The notes under the pieces were generated by a model. It did no database searches. It had not been told where the DNA came from and saw nothing but the letters and a program-made list of their open reading frames with translations. A stretch of 30,295 nt of DNA from a virus. A program made the position numbers and the translations under genes. This document shows positions 1 to 6,590 of this stretch, piece after piece (the first letter of the stretch is position 1; every line of letters begins with the position of its first letter). The stretch is from the IMG/VR virus record IMGVR_UViG_3300024261_000113, positions 1-30,295 of that record; one strand, 5' to 3'.

Positions 1-2
1 GT

Positions 3-425
3 CAAACAAGATACAAGGTAATTTATAATACATACGATTGTGAGGGTATGGTAACACCGCTAAAGAATACGGAGTCACACGAGAAGGTTAGCCAGAAGGA
101 GATGGCATTCGTAGAGAAGGGTGTTCTAACTAAGCCGAGGAAGTATTGGAAGGTTGATGAGAAGACTCTCAAGAAAGTTAAGGCAAAGAAGAAGGCTAGA
201 CAGTTCATCACATTGTTCCAAGAGTATAACAAGTTGGAGAAATTACGCGGTACATATTTACTTGGGTGGAGTGACTTTATTCATAAACTGAATCTAAAAA
301 AAGATACACTACATCCCCAGTTAAATCAATGTGTGGCGGTTACAGGTAGGCTTAGTTCTAGTCAACCAAATGGACAGAATGCAGATTCATCCACTAAACG
401 ATATTGTGAGAGTAGATACTTATGA
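3..425 (+). CDS. DNA polymerase I family A, upstream part (5' cut by window edge)
   Basis: The frame is open from the left edge, so the true start lies outside the window. It encodes about 140 residues of the region just before the polymerase active site. The recognisable part is the family A stretch around 312-380, with HPQLNQ, then VAVTGRLSSSQPNGQN, which matches the conserved GRLSS..PN.QN block that leads into motif A. The frame ends with KRYCESRYL and a TGA at 423-425. Motif A, which should follow within a few residues, is in another frame starting at the overlapping ATG at 422. The two frames together would make one normal polymerase. It is either a genuinely split enzyme with coupled translation, a frameshifted gene, or a one-base sequence error. 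The 3'-5' exonuclease domain, if present, would lie upstream of the window. Confidence 0.85.
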   Translation, partial: QTRYKVIYNTYDCEGMVTPLKNTESHEKVSQKEMAFVEKGVLTKPRKYWKVDEKTLKKVKAKKKARQFITLFQEYNKLEKLRGTYLLGWSDFIHKLNLKKDTLHPQLNQCVAVTGRLSSSQPNGQNADSSTKRYCESRYL

Positions 426-1153
426 TAATACAATTAGATGCGAAGGGATTAGAGATAGTCTGTGGAGCATACCTATCACAAGATGAGGTTCTAATGAAGG
501 AACTCATTGATGGGGTTGATATTCACAGTCGCAACCAGAAGATGTTAGGACTACCAGAGGGTAAGGATGGTCGATTGGTTGCTAAGATATTTGTATTCAG
601 ATTGATGTATGGTGGTGGTGCTTGGGGTTATGCCAATGATCCTGCATTCTCTTGGATTAGTTCTAAGGGGCAGTTTTGGCAGGATAAGATTGATGACTAT
701 TATTCTAAGTACAAAGGCTTTGCTAAGTGGCACAACACCATTGTTGTTAAAGCATCAAGGGAGGGTAAGCTAGTTATGCCAACAGGTAGGGTTTATCACT
801 TCCCATTAACTAGAAACAAGATAACCAACGAACTGGAAGTGCCAGAACGTGCTATAAAGAATTATCCAGTACAAGGGTTAGGTGCAGATGTTATGGCAGT
901 AGCACGAGTATCATTTTTTAAAAGGTGGAAGGATATTGGAGATATTAAAGGCGTTCTTTGCAATACTGTGCATGATTCAATTGTTTGTGATATACAATCA
1001 TCTGAAGTGGCGAGAGTTCGTGATTTATGCCACTCAGTGTTCAGTGACCTCCCTGATAATTTTGGGCGTGTATTTGGCAAGCGTTTCAACCTTCCACTTT
1101 GTTGTGAGGTTCTTGGAGGAAATAACATGACAGATATGGAGGAGATATTGTAA
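422..1153 (+). CDS. DNA polymerase I family A, catalytic palm/fingers part
   Basis: This 243-residue frame carries all three catalytic motifs of family A DNA polymerases. Motif A is QLDAKGLEIV with the metal-binding Asp at D6 and the steric-gate Glu at E11. Motif B (O helix) is R51-x3-K55-x3-F59-x3-Y63-G64, exactly the spacing of R754, K758, F762, Y766 in E. coli Pol I. Motif C is VHDS with H184 and D185; Ser replaces the usual Glu after the Asp, as in some phage enzymes. NYPVQGLGADVM around 148-159 is also typical. It should extend primers during phage DNA replication. The ATG at 422 sits inside the stop region of the preceding frame (ATGA), and only a weak GAG-rich stretch precedes it, so expression by termination-reinitiation is likely if the split is real. 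Confidence 0.9.
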   Translation: MIIQLDAKGLEIVCGAYLSQDEVLMKELIDGVDIHSRNQKMLGLPEGKDGRLVAKIFVFRLMYGGGAWGYANDPAFSWISSKGQFWQDKIDDYYSKYKGFAKWHNTIVVKASREGKLVMPTGRVYHFPLTRNKITNELEVPERAIKNYPVQGLGADVMAVARVSFFKRWKDIGDIKGVLCNTVHDSIVCDIQSSEVARVRDLCHSVFSDLPDNFGRVFGKRFNLPLCCEVLGGNNMTDMEEIL

Positions 1154-1160
1154 ATAATAG

Positions 1161-1189
1161 TGTACATTTAGTTTTAAGTATGGTATAAT
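1161..1189 (+). promoter_or_regulatory. sigma70-like promoter with extended -10
   Basis: In the gap between the polymerase and the next gene, TGTACA (1161-1166, 4 of 6 matches to TTGACA) is followed after exactly 17 bp by TATAAT (1184-1189). TGG directly before it gives an extended -10. The start site would fall near the GGGG at 1193-1196. AAGGAG at 1212-1217 is the ribosome site for the gene at 1224. A closely similar element stands on the other strand at 21781-21809. It probably drives the second half of the replication arm using host RNA polymerase. Confidence 0.75.
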
Positions 1190-1223
1190 ATAGGGGTAGT
1201 AAAAAACATTAAAGGAGAAACAA

Positions 1224-1784
1224 ATGCCACAAAGTATAAGTACAGGGATAGTAGTAGAGATAAAAAAAGATATGGAATTTACCAACGCAGCAGGTAAAAC
1301 ATATAAGGGCGTAAGATTTACTTATAGTGATGATAAGACAGGGGACATTAAGGCTCAAAAGTTCCATGAGAATGTAATGAAATACTCCCCAGAAGTAGCC
1401 AAAGGAATTAATACTTTGGTTAAGGATGACGAGTTTACAATGATTAAAGAAAAGAAAGAAGGTAGTGATTTTTGGAATGCTACTAGCATCACTAAAGGGA
1501 GGGACACAGGAGTGGTAAATACAGCAGCCCCACAAGCAGCAGGTAAGTCAGCAGCTAAACCGTATGTCTCTACATACGAGACGAAAGAAGAACGGGCAAT
1601 ACGACAACGGCTTATAGTCGCTCAGTCATCTCTTTCTACAGCCATTGGTTGTCTAAGTGATAAAGAGAAGCTTAATGAAAAGAAAGTATTTGCAACCGCA
1701 GAGAATATCTTTCAATGGGTAATGAACCATAAGGAAGAAGATGCTACCGCAGCAGATGAAGTTGAAATGGGCGAAATGACCTAA
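1224..1784 (+). CDS. putative single-stranded DNA-binding-like protein, acidic tail
   Basis: This 186-residue protein was not recognised with certainty. Its first 95 residues look beta-rich, with alternating charged and hydrophobic residues (TGIVVEIKKDMEF, then TYKGVRFTYSD), compatible with an OB-type fold. The middle is Ala-rich and low in complexity (about 95-115), and the C-terminus is acidic (EEDATAADEVEMGEMT). A nucleic-acid-binding core plus an acidic tail is the plan of phage single-stranded DNA-binding proteins such as T7 gp2.5. The location between DNA polymerase and a 5'-3' exonuclease fits that role. It is the first gene after the promoter at 1161-1189, with a strong AAGGAG six bases before ATG. 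Its stop shares a base with the next start (TAATG). The function is inferred from shape and position only. Confidence 0.5.
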   Translation: MPQSISTGIVVEIKKDMEFTNAAGKTYKGVRFTYSDDKTGDIKAQKFHENVMKYSPEVAKGINTLVKDDEFTMIKEKKEGSDFWNATSITKGRDTGVVNTAAPQAAGKSAAKPYVSTYETKEERAIRQRLIVAQSSLSTAIGCLSDKEKLNEKKVFATAENIFQWVMNHKEEDATAADEVEMGEMT

Positions 1785-2524
1785 TGACTACTGCCCTGAT
1801 AGATGGGGATTTAATATGCTACATATCCGCAGTATCGGCAGATGGGGCAGATGAAAGGTTCGCTACTTATAGAGCCGAGAAGATGTTGGGGAGGATATTA
1901 GAGGAGGTTAATTGTGACAGTTACAGGGTATTTCTTTCAGGAGGTAATAACTTCCGCAAGCAAATTAACCCAGAGTATAAAGCACAAAGACCTCCTCCTC
2001 CTGAACACTTAAAAGCCTGTAGGCAGCTAATGATTGACAAGCATAATGCTGAAGTAACTGATGGATATGAAGCGGATGATGCTCTAGGAATCGCCCAGAC
2101 AAAAGATACAGTAATATGTTCTATAGACAAAGATCTACTAATGATAGAAGGAAAGCATTACAGTTGGGATATAGTTCGTAAGGGTAAAATAGTTCGCCCT
2201 GCAATATTTAGAGAAGTTAGTTACTACGATGGCATTATACATTTCTATAAACAAATGCTCATAGGTGACGTAGCTGATAATCTATTTGGAATCAGGGGTA
2301 TCGGAGAAGCAAAGGCAAGTAAATTGTTAGAGAGAGTACCTAATGAAGACTTACTCAGAACGATTGTTCTTAATATGTATATTGATGACAGGGTTGGAGG
2401 TATACAAGATAGACCTGATCTAGAAAGAGAGGAAACCGCTAGGTTCTATAAAAACGCTGATTGCTTTTGGATTTGGAGGGATTTAGGAGTGACTTATTCT
2501 GTAAGAGAAGATATTGAGGGTTAA
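1784..2524 (+). CDS. FEN/PIN-type 5'-3' exonuclease (T7 gp6-like)
   Basis: This 246-residue protein belongs to the flap endonuclease / 5'-3' exonuclease family. The metal-binding motifs appear in order: IDGD (D7, D9), the arch residues Y65-K66 to R69, GYEADDA (E96, D98, D99), and SIDKD (D115, D117). GDVADN (D162, D165) then precedes the helix-three-turn-helix GIRGIGEAKA at about 169-178 that grips the DNA. In phages this enzyme removes RNA primers and degrades host DNA, feeding nucleotides into phage synthesis. The start overlaps the preceding stop as TAATG, so translation is probably coupled. The length fits small phage members of the family (T7 gp6 is somewhat longer). The last 11 bp overlap the TTG start of the HNH gene. 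Confidence 0.9.
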   Translation: MTTALIDGDLICYISAVSADGADERFATYRAEKMLGRILEEVNCDSYRVFLSGGNNFRKQINPEYKAQRPPPPEHLKACRQLMIDKHNAEVTDGYEADDALGIAQTKDTVICSIDKDLLMIEGKHYSWDIVRKGKIVRPAIFREVSYYDGIIHFYKQMLIGDVADNLFGIRGIGEAKASKLLERVPNEDLLRTIVLNMYIDDRVGGIQDRPDLEREETARFYKNADCFWIWRDLGVTYSVREDIEG

Positions 2525-2876
2525 GGGTTGGACAGAGGGAAGATTTAGGAGTTTTATTTTTAGCGTGATTAGAGGAGGTATGAGGAGGTATCCACCTAAG
2601 TTTATGTGCCTAAACAAAGCCAAGGTGGGGAAACAAATTAATAAAGCTAGTGGAAGGATGGCACAACACTATAAATGTAATAAATGTAAAGAAGCATTCC
2701 CACAGAAGGAAGTACAGGTAGACCATAAGAAGCCAGTGGTTGATCCCAAGACAGGGTTTGTCGATTGGAATACCTATATAGATAGAATGTTTTGTGAGGA
2801 TAAAAACTTTCAAGTGTTATGTAAATCGTGCCATAAGATTAAGACTCAGAAAGAAAAACTTAGGAGGAAAAAATGA
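2514..2876 (+). CDS. HNH endonuclease with two CxxC zinc knuckles (TTG start)
   Basis: This 120-residue protein has a classic zinc-supported HNH nuclease. The first knuckle is C55-x2-C58; VDHKKPV supplies the catalytic His (D70-H71); NFQVLC gives N98; and the second knuckle is C103-x2-C106 followed by H107. The N-terminal GWTEGRFRSFIFSVIRGG helix looks like a DNA-contacting extension. That helix requires the TTG at 2514, because an in-frame TAA lies just upstream at 2502-2504 and the first ATG comes only at codon 23. The gene overlaps the exonuclease end by 11 bp and ends in ATGA with the next gene. Because it sits in the replication block, it may act as a recombination or branch-resolving nuclease, as T7 gp3 does at a similar genome position. 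A free-standing homing nuclease is the alternative. Confidence 0.8.
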   Translation: MRVKGWTEGRFRSFIFSVIRGGMRRYPPKFMCLNKAKVGKQINKASGRMAQHYKCNKCKEAFPQKEVQVDHKKPVVDPKTGFVDWNTYIDRMFCEDKNFQVLCKSCHKIKTQKEKLRRKK

Positions 2877-3118
2877 TTTCCAAGGTAGTCAATATAACAT
2901 TCTCAGATCGTCCTGCCACCTACAAATTACAGATGGTAGGGGAAGGAAGTACGGGAGAAGAACCACAAAAGCAGAGGGAGTTCTGGTCAACGAGGTCATG
3001 TAGATTGTTTCCTGCTGAGATAACCTTTATTGAGAAGGCAGAACGAGACTATGCTAGGGCGCAAGAAATTTTAGCCAAGACGTATGTTGAATGGGAGAAA
3101 AGCTTATCAACATCCTAA
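2873..3118 (+). CDS. small protein of unknown function
   Basis: This 81-residue frame starts in an ATGA overlap with the HNH gene stop, with AGGAGG about five bases before the ATG, so it is very probably translated. No family was recognised. The first half (MISKVVNITFSDRPATYKL) looks like beta strands, with a Gly/Glu-rich link near 24-32. The second half (about 50-78) is a charged helix. There are no membrane segments or cysteine pairs apart from a single Cys at 43. The last 28 bp overlap the following exonuclease gene in another frame. Its place inside the replication operon suggests an accessory role there, but nothing in the sequence says which. Confidence 0.6.
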   Translation: MISKVVNITFSDRPATYKLQMVGEGSTGEEPQKQREFWSTRSCRLFPAEITFIEKAERDYARAQEILAKTYVEWEKSLSTS

Positions 3119-3825
3119 TATTAGATATAGAAACTGCACCTAATCTGGCACACACATGGGGTTTATACGATCAGTCAGTCGCTTTAAATCAGATAGTGAA
3201 GCCCAGTTACACGTTATGTTGGGCTGCCAAGTGGTTAGGTAAGAAGAAAGTATTCTTTAGAGATCATAAAGAAAAGGCATTCGTAAAAGATATATACGAA
3301 TTACTTACGGAAGCTGATGCGGTGGTGCATTATAACGGTTCTAAATTCGATATTCCTATTTTAAACAAGGACTTCGTTAATCAAGGATTACCACCACCTG
3401 CCCCTTTTAAGGAGATTGATTTACTAAAGACAGTTAGAAGAAGATTTAGAATGCCTAGTAATAAGTTAGAGTATGTATGTAATTTTTTAGAAATTGGAAA
3501 CAAACTCAAACATCAAGGGCATGATTTATGGACGGCTTATATGGCAGGTGATAAGAAAGCCATGCAGAAAATGAAGAGGTATAATATACATGACATTACC
3601 CTAACGGAGCAATTGTATATGAGACTTCTTCCTTGGATTCCCAATCACCCCACAGATAGCCCTACAAATGCTTGTCCTGTATGTGGTGGTCATCATTTAC
3701 AGCGTAGAGGTACTATTAGAAGGTTAGCAGGATTGTACGCAAGGTATCAATGCCAAGACTGTGGAAAATGGAGTCAAGGTACTGAGAAGTTAGAAAAGCT
3801 TGTTATAACACACAAAGGGATATAA
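3091..3825 (+). CDS. DnaQ/YprB-like 3'-5' exonuclease with C-terminal zinc ribbon
   Basis: This 244-residue protein has an RNase H-fold DEDD exonuclease core. ExoI motif is LDIET (D12, E14); ExoII is HYNGSKFD (N82, D87); ExoIII is YNIHDITLT with D168; and D110 lies in the strand between. The spacing and the HYNG..FD motif resemble YprB/RNase_H_2-type exonucleases more than polymerase proofreading domains. Residues 195-224 add a zinc ribbon (C195-x2-C198 and C221-x2-C224) that may bind DNA. It could provide end-processing or proofreading alongside the polymerase. The ATG at 3091 is preceded by no clear ribosome site and lies 28 bp inside the upstream gene, so coupled translation is likely. Confidence 0.8.
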   Translation: MGEKLINILILDIETAPNLAHTWGLYDQSVALNQIVKPSYTLCWAAKWLGKKKVFFRDHKEKAFVKDIYELLTEADAVVHYNGSKFDIPILNKDFVNQGLPPPAPFKEIDLLKTVRRRFRMPSNKLEYVCNFLEIGNKLKHQGHDLWTAYMAGDKKAMQKMKRYNIHDITLTEQLYMRLLPWIPNHPTDSPTNACPVCGGHHLQRRGTIRRLAGLYARYQCQDCGKWSQGTEKLEKLVITHKGI

Positions 3826-3826
3826 A

Positions 3827-3901
3827 ATGGATGAAAGACTTAAACAAATGGTGGAAAGATTTATGGTTTCCTGCTATAAATCTTTGGAATGCACCACATA
3901 G
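3827..3901 (+). CDS. possible 24-residue small ORF
   Basis: ATG at 3827 stands six bases after AGGGA (3816-3820), an ideal ribosome spacing, and opens a 24-codon frame (begins MDERLKQMVERF, ends LECTT, TAG at 3899-3901). It overlaps, in another frame, the open stretch upstream of the next gene. The ribosome site suits this start better than the alternative ATG at 3831. There are no recognisable motifs apart from an amphipathic, charged helix. It may be a leader peptide coupling translation to the gene starting near 3915, or it may be chance. Confidence 0.3.
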   Translation: MDERLKQMVERFMVSCYKSLECTT

Positions 3902-3914
3902 GGTAAAGACTATT

Positions 3915-4091
3915 ATGCCACTCACACACGAAGAAATTAAAGCAAGATTGAAGATGTTAGATGAGATTTCACTCTTAGAGATATTAGAAATATCTTCAGA
4001 GGATATAGTAGAAAAGTTCTCTGAAAAAATTGAGAGGAGGGGAGATTATTTTATTAAGGATTTAGAAGATGAGGAGTGGGATGATGAGTAA
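3915..4091 (+). CDS. small acidic helical phage protein
   Basis: From ATG 3915 the product is 58 residues: MPLTHEEIKARLKMLDE, then LLEILEISSEDIVEKF, and an acidic end EDEEWDDE. The L-T-H-E-E-(I/L)-K start and the L-L-E-x-L-x-I-S-S-E-D-(I/L)-V core recall a short conserved protein often seen in phage replication regions, whose function is unknown to me. The frame is open back to an ATG at 3831, which would add a Trp-rich 28-residue extension. I prefer 3915 because the recognised core begins there, though its ribosome site is weak (AGGG about 11 bases before). The end overlaps the next gene by 8 bp. Confidence 0.55.
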   Translation: MPLTHEEIKARLKMLDEISLLEILEISSEDIVEKFSEKIERRGDYFIKDLEDEEWDDE

Positions 4092-4335
4092 GTTAACTAA
4101 AAAAGAGAAGGAAGCAGATGAATTAAATTGGCTTCTTGCTGACCAACATCAAGTGGGGGGAGATCATTACTTAACTGAGATACAGCCTTGGGATTTTATA
4201 ATAGCAAACAACTTAGCATTCCTAGAGGGAAATATAATTAAGTATATTTGTCGTTATAAAAACAAGGGTGGTGTTGAAGATTTATACAAGGCAGATCATT
4301 ACCTGAAGAAGTTGATTGAGACTGAGGAGAAATAA
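4084..4335 (+). CDS. DUF3310-like nucleotide kinase-associated protein
   Basis: This 83-residue protein matches the DUF3310 (SaV-like) pattern widespread in phages: HQVGGDHYL, then IQPWDFIIANNLAFLEGNIIKYICRYKNKGGVEDL split over about 25-65, and a closing helix DHYLKKLIE. These short proteins are often fused to or next to nucleotide-metabolism genes, but no activity is established. Three in-frame starts exist (4069, 4081, 4084). GAGGAG at 4071-4076 gives the best spacing to the ATG at 4084. The gene overlaps the preceding one by 8 bp, and its TAA shares a base with the start of the tiny membrane protein at 4335. Confidence 0.8.
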   Translation: MSKLTKKEKEADELNWLLADQHQVGGDHYLTEIQPWDFIIANNLAFLEGNIIKYICRYKNKGGVEDLYKADHYLKKLIETEEK

Positions 4336-4466
4336 TGACTATGATGGGTAGTATCGGAGATATATTAATAACTACGCAGGTTCTCATTGTTAGTCTAGCT
4401 ATAGTAATAGTGGCTATAGGTGGACTACTAACAGTATTGGAATGGGTAGCTACAGATAAAAAATAA
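4335..4466 (+). CDS. 43-residue single-pass membrane protein
   Basis: This short gene begins in a TAATG overlap with the DUF3310-like gene and has GAGGAGA (4324-4330) just before it, so translation is likely. The product starts MTMMGSIGDILITT. It continues with one strongly hydrophobic run (VLIVSLAIVIVAIGGLLTVL, about residues 16-35) and ends EWVATDKK, giving a positively charged tail. One membrane pass is expected. It fills the 145-bp gap before the reductase gene. No family was recognised. Small membrane proteins in phage early regions can modulate the host envelope or exclude other phages, but here that is speculation. Confidence 0.6.
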   Translation: MTMMGSIGDILITTQVLIVSLAIVIVAIGGLLTVLEWVATDKK

Positions 4467-4480
4467 AATTTAAGGATAAT

Positions 4481-6412
4481 ATGAAAAAAGCGAACAAGAT
4501 GGGAACTTATGAGCAGATAATCCACGTAACAAAATATGCTAGGTATTTAGAAGAAAAGAAACGTAGAGAGTCATGGGAAGAGACTATCACTAGGTTTATG
4601 GACTATATGTCTATAAAAGTAGACCTTGACGGCAAGTATAAGGAGCTACACAAGGCTCTAGTAAATCAGGAGATAGTACCCTCCATGAGACTCCTTATGA
4701 CGGCAGGAGAGGCTTGTGAGAGGGATAATATAGCAGCATTTAACTGTGCCTACACCTCTATATCCAGTAAACGGGTGTTTAGTGAAATCTTATACATACT
4801 AATGAACGGAACTGGTATTGGGTTCTCTAATGAGCGCAAGAAAATAGATCTGTTACCTCCTGTGCCTAGAGAATTGTCATGGTCGGATGATGTAATTGTA
4901 GTGGCAGATAGTAAGAAGGGTTGGGCGGTAGCCTTTAGAAAGTTGATGAGTTCGCTATGGGAAGGTGATATTCCTAATGTTGATTACTCTAAGATCAGAC
5001 CTGCGGGAGCAAGGCTTAAAACATTTGGTGGTCGTGCTTCTGGGCCTCTACCATTACAGAATCTATTTACATTTGTAACAGAAACATTTAAGGGGGCTAA
5101 AGGACGTAAGCTGAATAGTCTAGAAGTACATGATATTATATGTATGATTGGTGACATTGTTGTTGTTGGTGGTGTGAGGCGAAGTGCATTGATTGGCTTA
5201 TCTAATCTAACTGACCACAGAATGCGTGATGCTAAGACAGGTCAATGGTATCTACCAGTACAAGACGGCGGAAATCCACATAGGATGTTAGCTAATAATT
5301 CAGTATGTTATACGGAGCAGCCCGATGCTAAAACTTTTTTGGAAGAATGGCTCAGTCTCGTTAAGTCGGGGTCTGGGGAGAGGGGGATCTTTAACCGCAT
5401 TGCTGCACAAAATCAAGCCTCTCGTTGGGGAAGACGTAGTGCTGATCTTGATTACGGATGCAATCCATGCTCAGAAATTATACTACGAGATAAACAATTC
5501 TGCAACCTTACAGAGGTTGTTGTTAGACAATCAGATACATATAATGAACTCAAGAAGAAGATTGAACTGGCAACAATACTTGGAACATATCAATCAACCC
5601 TTACGGATTTCAAGTTCTTATCCGAAGAATGGAAGAAGAACACAGACGAAGAAAGGCTGCTAGGAGTTAGCCTGACAGGTATTATGGATAGCCCATTACT
5701 GAATGGGGCTAAAGATGCGGTGCTACAACATAGGGAATTGGTACGGGGACTACCTACATTACTACAGGAGTTAAGAGATCATGCTAGGAAGGTTAATATT
5801 AAATGGGCTGAGAGACTTAACATACCTGTGTCTACTGCTATTACTTGCGTTAAGCCTTCTGGGACTGTTTCTCAGTTGTGTAACTCTGCTAGTGGGATTC
5901 ATGCTAGGTTTGCCCCTTACTACATACGCCGTATTCAATTAGATAAGAAAGATCCAGTATGTCAATTCTTATTAGACAATGGATTTCCTCTAGTTGATTA
6001 TGAAGCCAAGAAGGAAACGACAATGGTAGCTAGTTTTCCCATGAAAGCACCCGTAGGGGCAGTGTGTAGGGGTACTCAAACAGCAATAGAACAGATGGAG
6101 TTATGGTTGATGTATCAAGATGATTGGTGCGAACATAAGCCTAGTTGTACTGTGTACGTGAAGGAACATGAATGGGTAGAGGTAGGTGCATGGGTCTGGA
6201 AGAATTTTGATCGCATCTCAGGAATAAGCTTTTTGCCCCACTCTGACCACGTATATCAACAAGCACCTTACGAGGACATTACAGAAGAGCAATATGAGGA
6301 AATGCTTTCTAAAATGCCTACAGAGATTGATTGGAGTGCCATGATTGAGGATAAGGATAATACAGAAGCATCACAAACCCTTGCTTGCGTGGCAGGGGCT
6401 TGTGAGATCTAA
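4481..6412 (+). CDS. nrdJ: adenosylcobalamin-dependent (class II) ribonucleotide reductase
   Basis: This 643-residue enzyme converts ribonucleotides to deoxyribonucleotides for phage DNA synthesis using a cobalamin-derived radical, so no separate small subunit is needed. The active site follows the monomeric class II pattern. C89 lies in NCAYTSI, and the finger loop N328-P-C330-S-E332 is followed by C341 in CNLTEV. The C330-to-C341 spacing is the same as between the radical Cys and its partner in the Lactobacillus enzyme. VKPSGTVSQLCNSASGIH is also typical. The C-terminal redox pair C636/C641 (CVAGAC) is present, so the gene looks intact. It is somewhat shorter than the roughly 740-residue bacterial monomeric enzyme, mostly in the N-terminal regulatory region. 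AAGGA five bases before ATG 4481 supports the start. The host must supply or import cobalamin. Confidence 0.93.
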   Translation: MKKANKMGTYEQIIHVTKYARYLEEKKRRESWEETITRFMDYMSIKVDLDGKYKELHKALVNQEIVPSMRLLMTAGEACERDNIAAFNCAYTSISSKRVFSEILYILMNGTGIGFSNERKKIDLLPPVPRELSWSDDVIVVADSKKGWAVAFRKLMSSLWEGDIPNVDYSKIRPAGARLKTFGGRASGPLPLQNLFTFVTETFKGAKGRKLNSLEVHDIICMIGDIVVVGGVRRSALIGLSNLTDHRMRDAKTGQWYLPVQDGGNPHRMLANNSVCYTEQPDAKTFLEEWLSLVKSGSGERGIFNRIAAQNQASRWGRRSADLDYGCNPCSEIILRDKQFCNLTEVVVRQSDTYNELKKKIELATILGTYQSTLTDFKFLSEEWKKNTDEERLLGVSLTGIMDSPLLNGAKDAVLQHRELVRGLPTLLQELRDHARKVNIKWAERLNIPVSTAITCVKPSGTVSQLCNSASGIHARFAPYYIRRIQLDKKDPVCQFLLDNGFPLVDYEAKKETTMVASFPMKAPVGAVCRGTQTAIEQMELWLMYQDDWCEHKPSCTVYVKEHEWVEVGAWVWKNFDRISGISFLPHSDHVYQQAPYEDITEEQYEEMLSKMPTEIDWSAMIEDKDNTEASQTLACVAGACEI

Positions 6413-6590
6413 AATAGACACTAAATGTATCCTTGAATGCCTTCTGAATGAGGAAGGGAATGCGTGTGTTAGTTGTGGGCGAACTCTACAGGAGATAAGA
6501 GATGATGGAATTAGAGCAAGAGACGAACTTCAATCTAGAATTAAAGAAACAACTGATGCTTCTAGCAGCCCAGTTAAGAGATCTAGATGA
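6402..6590 (+). CDS. DUF1289-like CxxC small protein (GTG start)
   Basis: This 62-residue frame, read from GTG 6402, contains C-I-L-E-C-L-L, then N-x-C-V-S-C-G-R-T-L-Q-E-I. That is the cysteine plan of DUF1289 proteins (C...C...G.C.GCGRTL.EI), probably metal-binding or redox-active. GTG 6402 follows AGGGG and overlaps the reductase end by 11 bp. An upstream ATG at 6345 in the same frame would place 57 more bases over the reductase and is less likely. The last 30 codons also overlap the next gene in another frame. Its position directly after ribonucleotide reductase suggests, without proof, a link to reductase redox or metal handling. Confidence 0.6.
   Translation: MRSKIDTKCILECLLNEEGNACVSCGRTLQEIRDDGIRARDELQSRIKETTDASSSPVKRSR

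Follow-up and report, generated by a model that had tools for sequence, protein, structure and literature searches.

A probable two-chain family A DNA polymerase in a relative of MEP401-type Zobellviridae, and candidate ribosome bypassing sites in motif A of related split polymerases

The window, by which we mean the whole 30,295-nucleotide stretch of viral DNA analysed here, opens with two overlapping genes corresponding to separate parts of a family A DNA polymerase, as listed below together with their conserved motifs.

3..425, + strand: N chain of the split family A DNA polymerase; open frame to the TGA at 423-425, Pfam DNA_pol_A 1.1e-13, homologous N chains in relatives
342..380, + strand: conserved TGRLSSSQPNGQN block (palm), from the translation; TGRLSSS and PN/QN do not vary among the aligned N chains
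422..425, + strand: ATGA overlap, with the C-chain start codon within the N-chain stop; same sequence in contig L001
422..1153, + strand: C chain with the motif A strand, fingers, and motif C palm (motifs A, B, and C); Pfam DNA_pol_A 2.8e-25, 144 split loci
434..454, + strand: motif A (LDAKGLE), intact in the window, with the catalytic Asp codon at 437-439; from the translation and the C-half alignment
572..616, + strand: motif B (RLVAKIFVFRLMYGG), the site of group I introns in five relatives; from the alignment and the relatives' loci
965..979, + strand: motif C (TVHDS) with the second catalytic Asp, invariant in the alignment

The N chain represents the exonuclease/thumb side of the polymerase and has the C-terminal end TGRLSSSQPNGQN...SRYL*, its last residues being ...CVAVTGRLSSSQPNGQNADSSTKRYCESRYL, followed by the TGA. 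Its 5' end was lost at the contig start, and a nearly complete copy was found in the independent IMG/VR contig L001 (L001:1-1140), which carries the exonuclease region, as do the complete N chains of the relatives. The C-chain ORF starts with the ATG at 422 and opens with MIIQLDAKGLEIVCGAYLSQD (MIIQLDAKGLE), its frame being -1 relative to that of the N chain with an overlap of 4 nt. The N and C halves matched positions 51-136 and 154-358 of the Pfam DNA_pol_A model, respectively, and in L001, the C half of which is 92% identical to that of the window, the TTATGATA junction was the same, with synonymous differences nearby. The ATGA split just before motif A proposed in the initial annotation was confirmed by these two frames, each matching a separate part of DNA_pol_A, and by the identical junction in L001. 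Its view that the reading order is intact with no sequence missing held for the order but not for the completeness, as an xGG turn of 2-3 residues seen in unsplit relatives (...SRFEGG, then KIMEADFSQLEFR) is absent from the split genes, the rest all being present. Farther downstream in the window, an HNH endonuclease gene (2514-2876; Pfam HNH 2.2e-5) overlaps the end of the 5'-3' exonuclease gene, and a separate RNase H-like/PolB-exo2-like exonuclease gene lies at 3091-3825; the relatives' counterparts of the latter weakly matched the exonuclease region of the N chain.

The major capsid protein and the large terminase (TerL) of the window phage were 64-71% and 61-62% identical, respectively, to those of MW202697, MEP401, and MEP402, and the phage is therefore a relative of the MEP401-type Zobellviridae. 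In the OM43 phages MEP401 and MEP402, two ORFs separated by a small third one encode the polymerase, and this split, for which an intron was proposed, is present in most of the related metagenomic genomes (PMC10580990). The window polymerase belongs to this previously reported split polymerase: besides the MEP401-like capsid and terminase, the window has two ORFs spanning the N- and C-terminal parts of PF00476, and the cut falls between SRY and the motif A strand, at the same residue. Megablast of the window polymerase against GenBank phages gave no match, and a search of bacterial and archaeal genomes retrieved two close relatives only, both on short MAG contigs.

The comparison with homologous phages that the initial annotation had proposed was made on 209 deduplicated loci obtained from IMG/VR scans and GenBank phages, comprising 144 split loci, 46 unsplit loci, and 19 fragments, and revealed that the 144 distinct split loci are cut at the same residue. 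Every C chain that reached profile position 1 started with ATG at the same residue (102 of 102), the N chains of the split loci nearly always ended within a few residues of SRY/SRF, and the gap between the halves ranged from -17 to +3598 nt with all three frame relations. The split was also found in the cultured phages MEP401, MEP402, and QDWS535, the last being an Alcaligenes phage in which the halves overlap by 1 nt, while in MW202796 a cytosine methyltransferase and other genes lie between the halves. As far as these sequences indicate, the split is a single event ancestral to the window, with one split/unsplit change on a quick tree of the C half. The distances of the N and C halves were correlated with r = 0.907 over 104 loci (maximum 0.20 in 2000 permutations), a mirror-tree correlation that partly reflects shared phage ancestry. 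Regarding the content of the gaps, small acidic ORFs resembling MEP401 gp14 form one family recurring between the halves (L005:7766-7999 and the gaps of ~36 loci), and a small R67-dihydrofolate-reductase-like ORF (Pfam DHFR_2 2.7e-22) was located between the two polymerase genes (MW202697, L003:4849-5055).

The two genes very probably specify a family A DNA polymerase of two subunits, the separate chains of which would each be produced by ordinary initiation and termination following the ancestral split. Chain 1 would comprise the 3'-5' exonuclease, the thumb, and the TGRLSSxxPN part of the palm, and chain 2 would supply motifs A, B, and C, namely the fingers and the catalytic palm; the cut would fall in the turn ahead of the motif A strand and remove only the 2-3 residues mentioned above. 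In the window, we infer that the ATGA overlap should couple the translation of chain 2 to that of chain 1, although the Shine-Dalgarno match ahead of the C start is weak (-3.1 kcal/mol, near the random-site average of -2.8). The earlier proposal of a two-chain polymerase made by coupled translation was strongly supported with respect to the two chains, and the coupling is plausible in the window, but would be unneeded in most relatives. The two chains are expected to assemble into the normal, active PolA fold without a peptide bond between them. A composite of locus L044, in which the two genes are in frame and 48 nt apart and were read through as a single chain, was predicted by AF2 to adopt one Klenow-like PolA fold (pLDDT 91, pTM 0.87) with only the linker disordered, and Foldseek gave Bst PolI as its top match (E 4e-27); because the composite is a single chain and the AF2 alignment took in unsplit polymerases, this result indicates compatibility with one fold rather than assembly. 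A replicative family A polymerase would have been kept as two chains, cut beside the catalytic aspartate, over long evolutionary time.

The other explanations of the junction were each found to be far less probable. An assembly or sequencing error splitting an intact gene, as considered in the initial annotation, has a negligible probability: the frames might in principle be joined by changing a single base, but this idea was refuted by the identical junction of the independent contig L001, by the 144 split loci from many samples, and by the split in the cultured MEP401, MEP402, and QDWS535. The programmed -1 frameshift at TTATGATA that was likewise suggested, which would join both frames of the window into one polymerase, agrees with the -1 relation and the 4-nt overlap; it is nevertheless very hard to accept, given that the site is not slippery (the P-site UUA would re-pair on CUU) and that the relatives have gaps of up to 3.6 kb, every frame relation, and start codons of their own.

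Introns are frequent in phage polymerases, and group I introns do occur in this same gene at motif B. Even so, it is highly improbable that the halves are exons flanking a group I intron or an intein, or the remains of one, joined by splicing as suggested previously (PMC10580990), because the window has no intervening sequence, the N chains stop right after SRY, the C chains have their own ATG, several gaps measure only 0-1 nt, and no Rfam group I intron match was obtained in window 1-6500 or in nine gap-containing loci. Nor was an intein detected at the half ends of the window, where N ends with ...SRYL and C starts with MIIQLDAK with no extra sequence. The C half was broken at motif B in five relatives (L081, L084, L086, L247, and L249); the 3' part of the break, unlike the C chains at the split, had no start codon in the three inspected (L081, L084, and L086), and the Rfam group I model matched all but one of the five loci, with scores of 48.7 to 25.8 bits (E 1.5e-9 to 0.011) that lie below the curated cut-off. 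These motif B introns constitute a positive control for intron detection, nothing similar being found at the N/C gap, and an intron or intein at the split was rejected, since the scans were blank at the junction and yet detected the introns of the relatives. The notion that the site just before motif A attracts invading elements thus proved valid for the relatives, with endonuclease genes in the gap and group I introns at motif B, but not for the window junction, where there is no intron, intein, or endonuclease gene. The motif B introns sit between FR and LIYGG, some with an HNH-like ORF, and a further break of the C gene was observed near C-profile position 146, beside the NYPVQG motif (L254:2975-4478 and L285:4034-5509).

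In the relatives, motif A was found to be interrupted at or beside DAKxL^E in approximately 25 of the 144 split loci, as well as in the fragment L154 and the GenBank MAG contig L285. The indels measure -1 to +10 nt, and the take-off codon is usually followed immediately by a stop; they are listed below, each with the take-off codon first.

CTG TAA CTG: L063
CTT TAG, then CTA, CTC, or CTT: L077, L085, L230
CTT T CTT: L071, L098, L099, L101
CTT C CTT: L117
CTT TA: L119, L219, L233
CTG TA: L102
CTT T GAG, resembling the RF2 site CUU UGA: L154, L226
CTC TT: L251
CAA ATATG CAG: L115, L116
GAA plus 10 nt: L227, L241
GAA plus 7 nt: L157
CTT plus 7 nt: L248
CAG TAG CGG: L224
-1 at A-AAG: L062, L114, L131
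+1 within a run of A, possibly a sequencing error: L003

The indel state required about 21 changes on the tree. The indels were grouped into 20 types, a grouping of our own, and compared with a null that treats inserts as random and ignores micro-duplication. A stop directly followed the take-off codon in 13 types (1.6 expected, p 4.5e-11), and take-off and landing codons were synonymous in 13 (2.9 expected, p 1.4e-8), while a minority of types, L102, L227, and L248 among others, did not fit a matched hop. Purifying selection was evident downstream of the indel (dN/dS 0.03-0.13 where dS was measurable), and no second intact C half was found in the indel-bearing contigs checked, which are incomplete. 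Reassigned stop codons were rejected as an explanation of the motif A stops, as all three stops (TAA, TAG, and TGA) are represented and reassignment would leave most inserts out of frame anyway.

Most of the indel-bearing loci also have a hairpin, the 5' arm of which lies around the C-chain start codon and the 3' arm of which ends at the take-off codon; the -1 indel types are without it. The mean z was -1.86 in 26 indel loci, against -0.21 in the 114 intact ones (p 3.7e-8), and the arms of the indel-bearing loci paired with their own partners at -11.6 versus -7.5 kcal/mol when swapped (permutation p 5e-5), the same arm-swap test on the intact loci giving p 0.73; these p-values are somewhat optimistic because several windows around the site were examined before the hairpin window was chosen, and the swap test is the stronger evidence.

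In 12 split loci, one ORF family (~100-175 residues as called) was located directly upstream of the C-chain start, between the halves (L062:3264-3695, L063:5552-5998, L077:5550-6008, others similar), and matched PHROG 3322 'endonuclease' as a free-standing ORF, suggesting a putative endonuclease; in L062, a sigma-70-like TTGACA-17-TATAAT precedes the ORF. A motif A indel was present in all 12 of these loci and in L131, which carries a deleted remnant of the ORF (13 of 13; Fisher about 5e-11), and a comparison of phylogenetically independent pairs, two loci with endonucleases of other types among them, gave 10 to 0 at best (median p 0.004). In most of the loci inspected, the endonuclease ORF lies between two copies of the C-gene start, a decayed one ahead of it and a fresh one after it, the latter mostly preceded by a clear Shine-Dalgarno sequence. 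The alignment of the gap endonucleases did not show the DHHRN motif of F-CphI (CX2-4C, DHDH, R, CX2C, N) but one CP and SIDR...GY..N; the AlphaFold model was poor (pLDDT 65), and the predicted structure had no PDB match. The HNH_3-type endonuclease genes in the gap did not go with indels (L072, L160, L214, L239, and L034 are intact; L227 is not), and the strong association is therefore limited to one endonuclease family. Because motif A indels occur also in loci without this family, the endonuclease may have founded the indel sites without being required for their persistence.

Judging from these sequence patterns, the junction and motif A would form an invasion hotspot in the relatives, with endonuclease genes between the halves, and the interruption of motif A in about one-sixth of the chain 2 genes would apparently be passed by ribosome hopping or frameshifting. 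The sites look like short T4-gene-60-style ribosome bypassing and are considered candidate sites. It is fairly likely that related split-PolA phages repeatedly evolved short programmed bypass or frameshift elements in motif A, partly founded by endonuclease insertion, so that recoding ~10 codons after the start would be needed for the catalytic chain; recoding is likely because of the matched codons, the stops after take-off, the hairpin, and the purifying selection downstream. This concerns the relatives, since motif A of the window is uninterrupted and the junction there lacks an endonuclease gene.

That the hairpin acts solely on C-chain initiation, by hiding the start codon, and plays no part in bypassing seems unlikely; the 5' arm does overlap the start codon and sometimes adjoins the Shine-Dalgarno sequence, but the hairpin occurs in the indel loci and not in the intact ones, its 3' arm ends at the take-off codon, and bypassing in T4 gene 60 is promoted by a stem loop on the 5' side (PMC5009743). 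Still less probable is that the indels are immunity scars that block the endonuclease and leave the C chain inactive without any recoding. The complete coincidence of the endonuclease family with indels would fit such scars, but the low dN/dS downstream, the lack of a second C half in the contigs checked, the synonymous take-off and landing codons and stops far above chance, the covarying hairpin, and the indels without an endonuclease all argue against them. Immunity and bypassing are nonetheless compatible, and both can be true, in which case the indels would also confer immunity to the endonuclease.

While the split itself was already reported (PMC10580990), the motif A indels of the relatives are new here. 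The window polymerase resembles that of MEP401/MEP402 in belonging to the same family and in having the same cut between the N- and C-terminal DNA_pol_A parts, whereas in the latter the halves flank a small ORF and an intron was suspected, in place of the ATGA overlap of the window, for which an intron is unsupported. A replicative phage polymerase in two chains is also known from gp43A/gp43B of Aeromonas phages 25 and 44RR, the split PolB chains of phage 25 being co-purified and active (PMC2988022); these are PolB rather than PolA, of an unrelated lineage, with a seg-type endonuclease gene or untranslated sequence between the genes. In nrdA of Aeh1, split by MobE (PMC2988022), an endonuclease was inserted in a key enzyme gene and the two chains still work, but the enzyme is a ribonucleotide reductase, the case is single, and there is no bypass. 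T4 gene 39/60 is split by mobA, with a 50-nt bypass in gene 60 (PMC2988022, PMC5009743); in that bypass, the take-off codon is followed by a stop and matches the landing codon, and a stem loop on the 5' side presumably pulls the mRNA (PMC5009743). The candidate sites likewise lie in a split gene invaded by endonucleases, but as many separate cases, and the stop after take-off and the synonymous landing codon, each in 13 of the 20 indel types, are features of the relatives and not of the window. They differ from T4 gene 60 in the size of the inserts, which are only 1-10 nt (or a 1-nt deletion), in their position within the active site of a polymerase, some ten codons downstream of the start, and in having originated independently many times. 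This recurrence opens to comparative and experimental tests the proposal that ribosome bypassing evolves to protect genes from homing endonucleases. A major review notes that shorter versions of the T4 gene 60 bypass had long been presumed to exist and that no natural in-frame stop hopping was known (PMC5009743), and the relatives offer roughly twenty candidate cases of such short ribosome bypassing.
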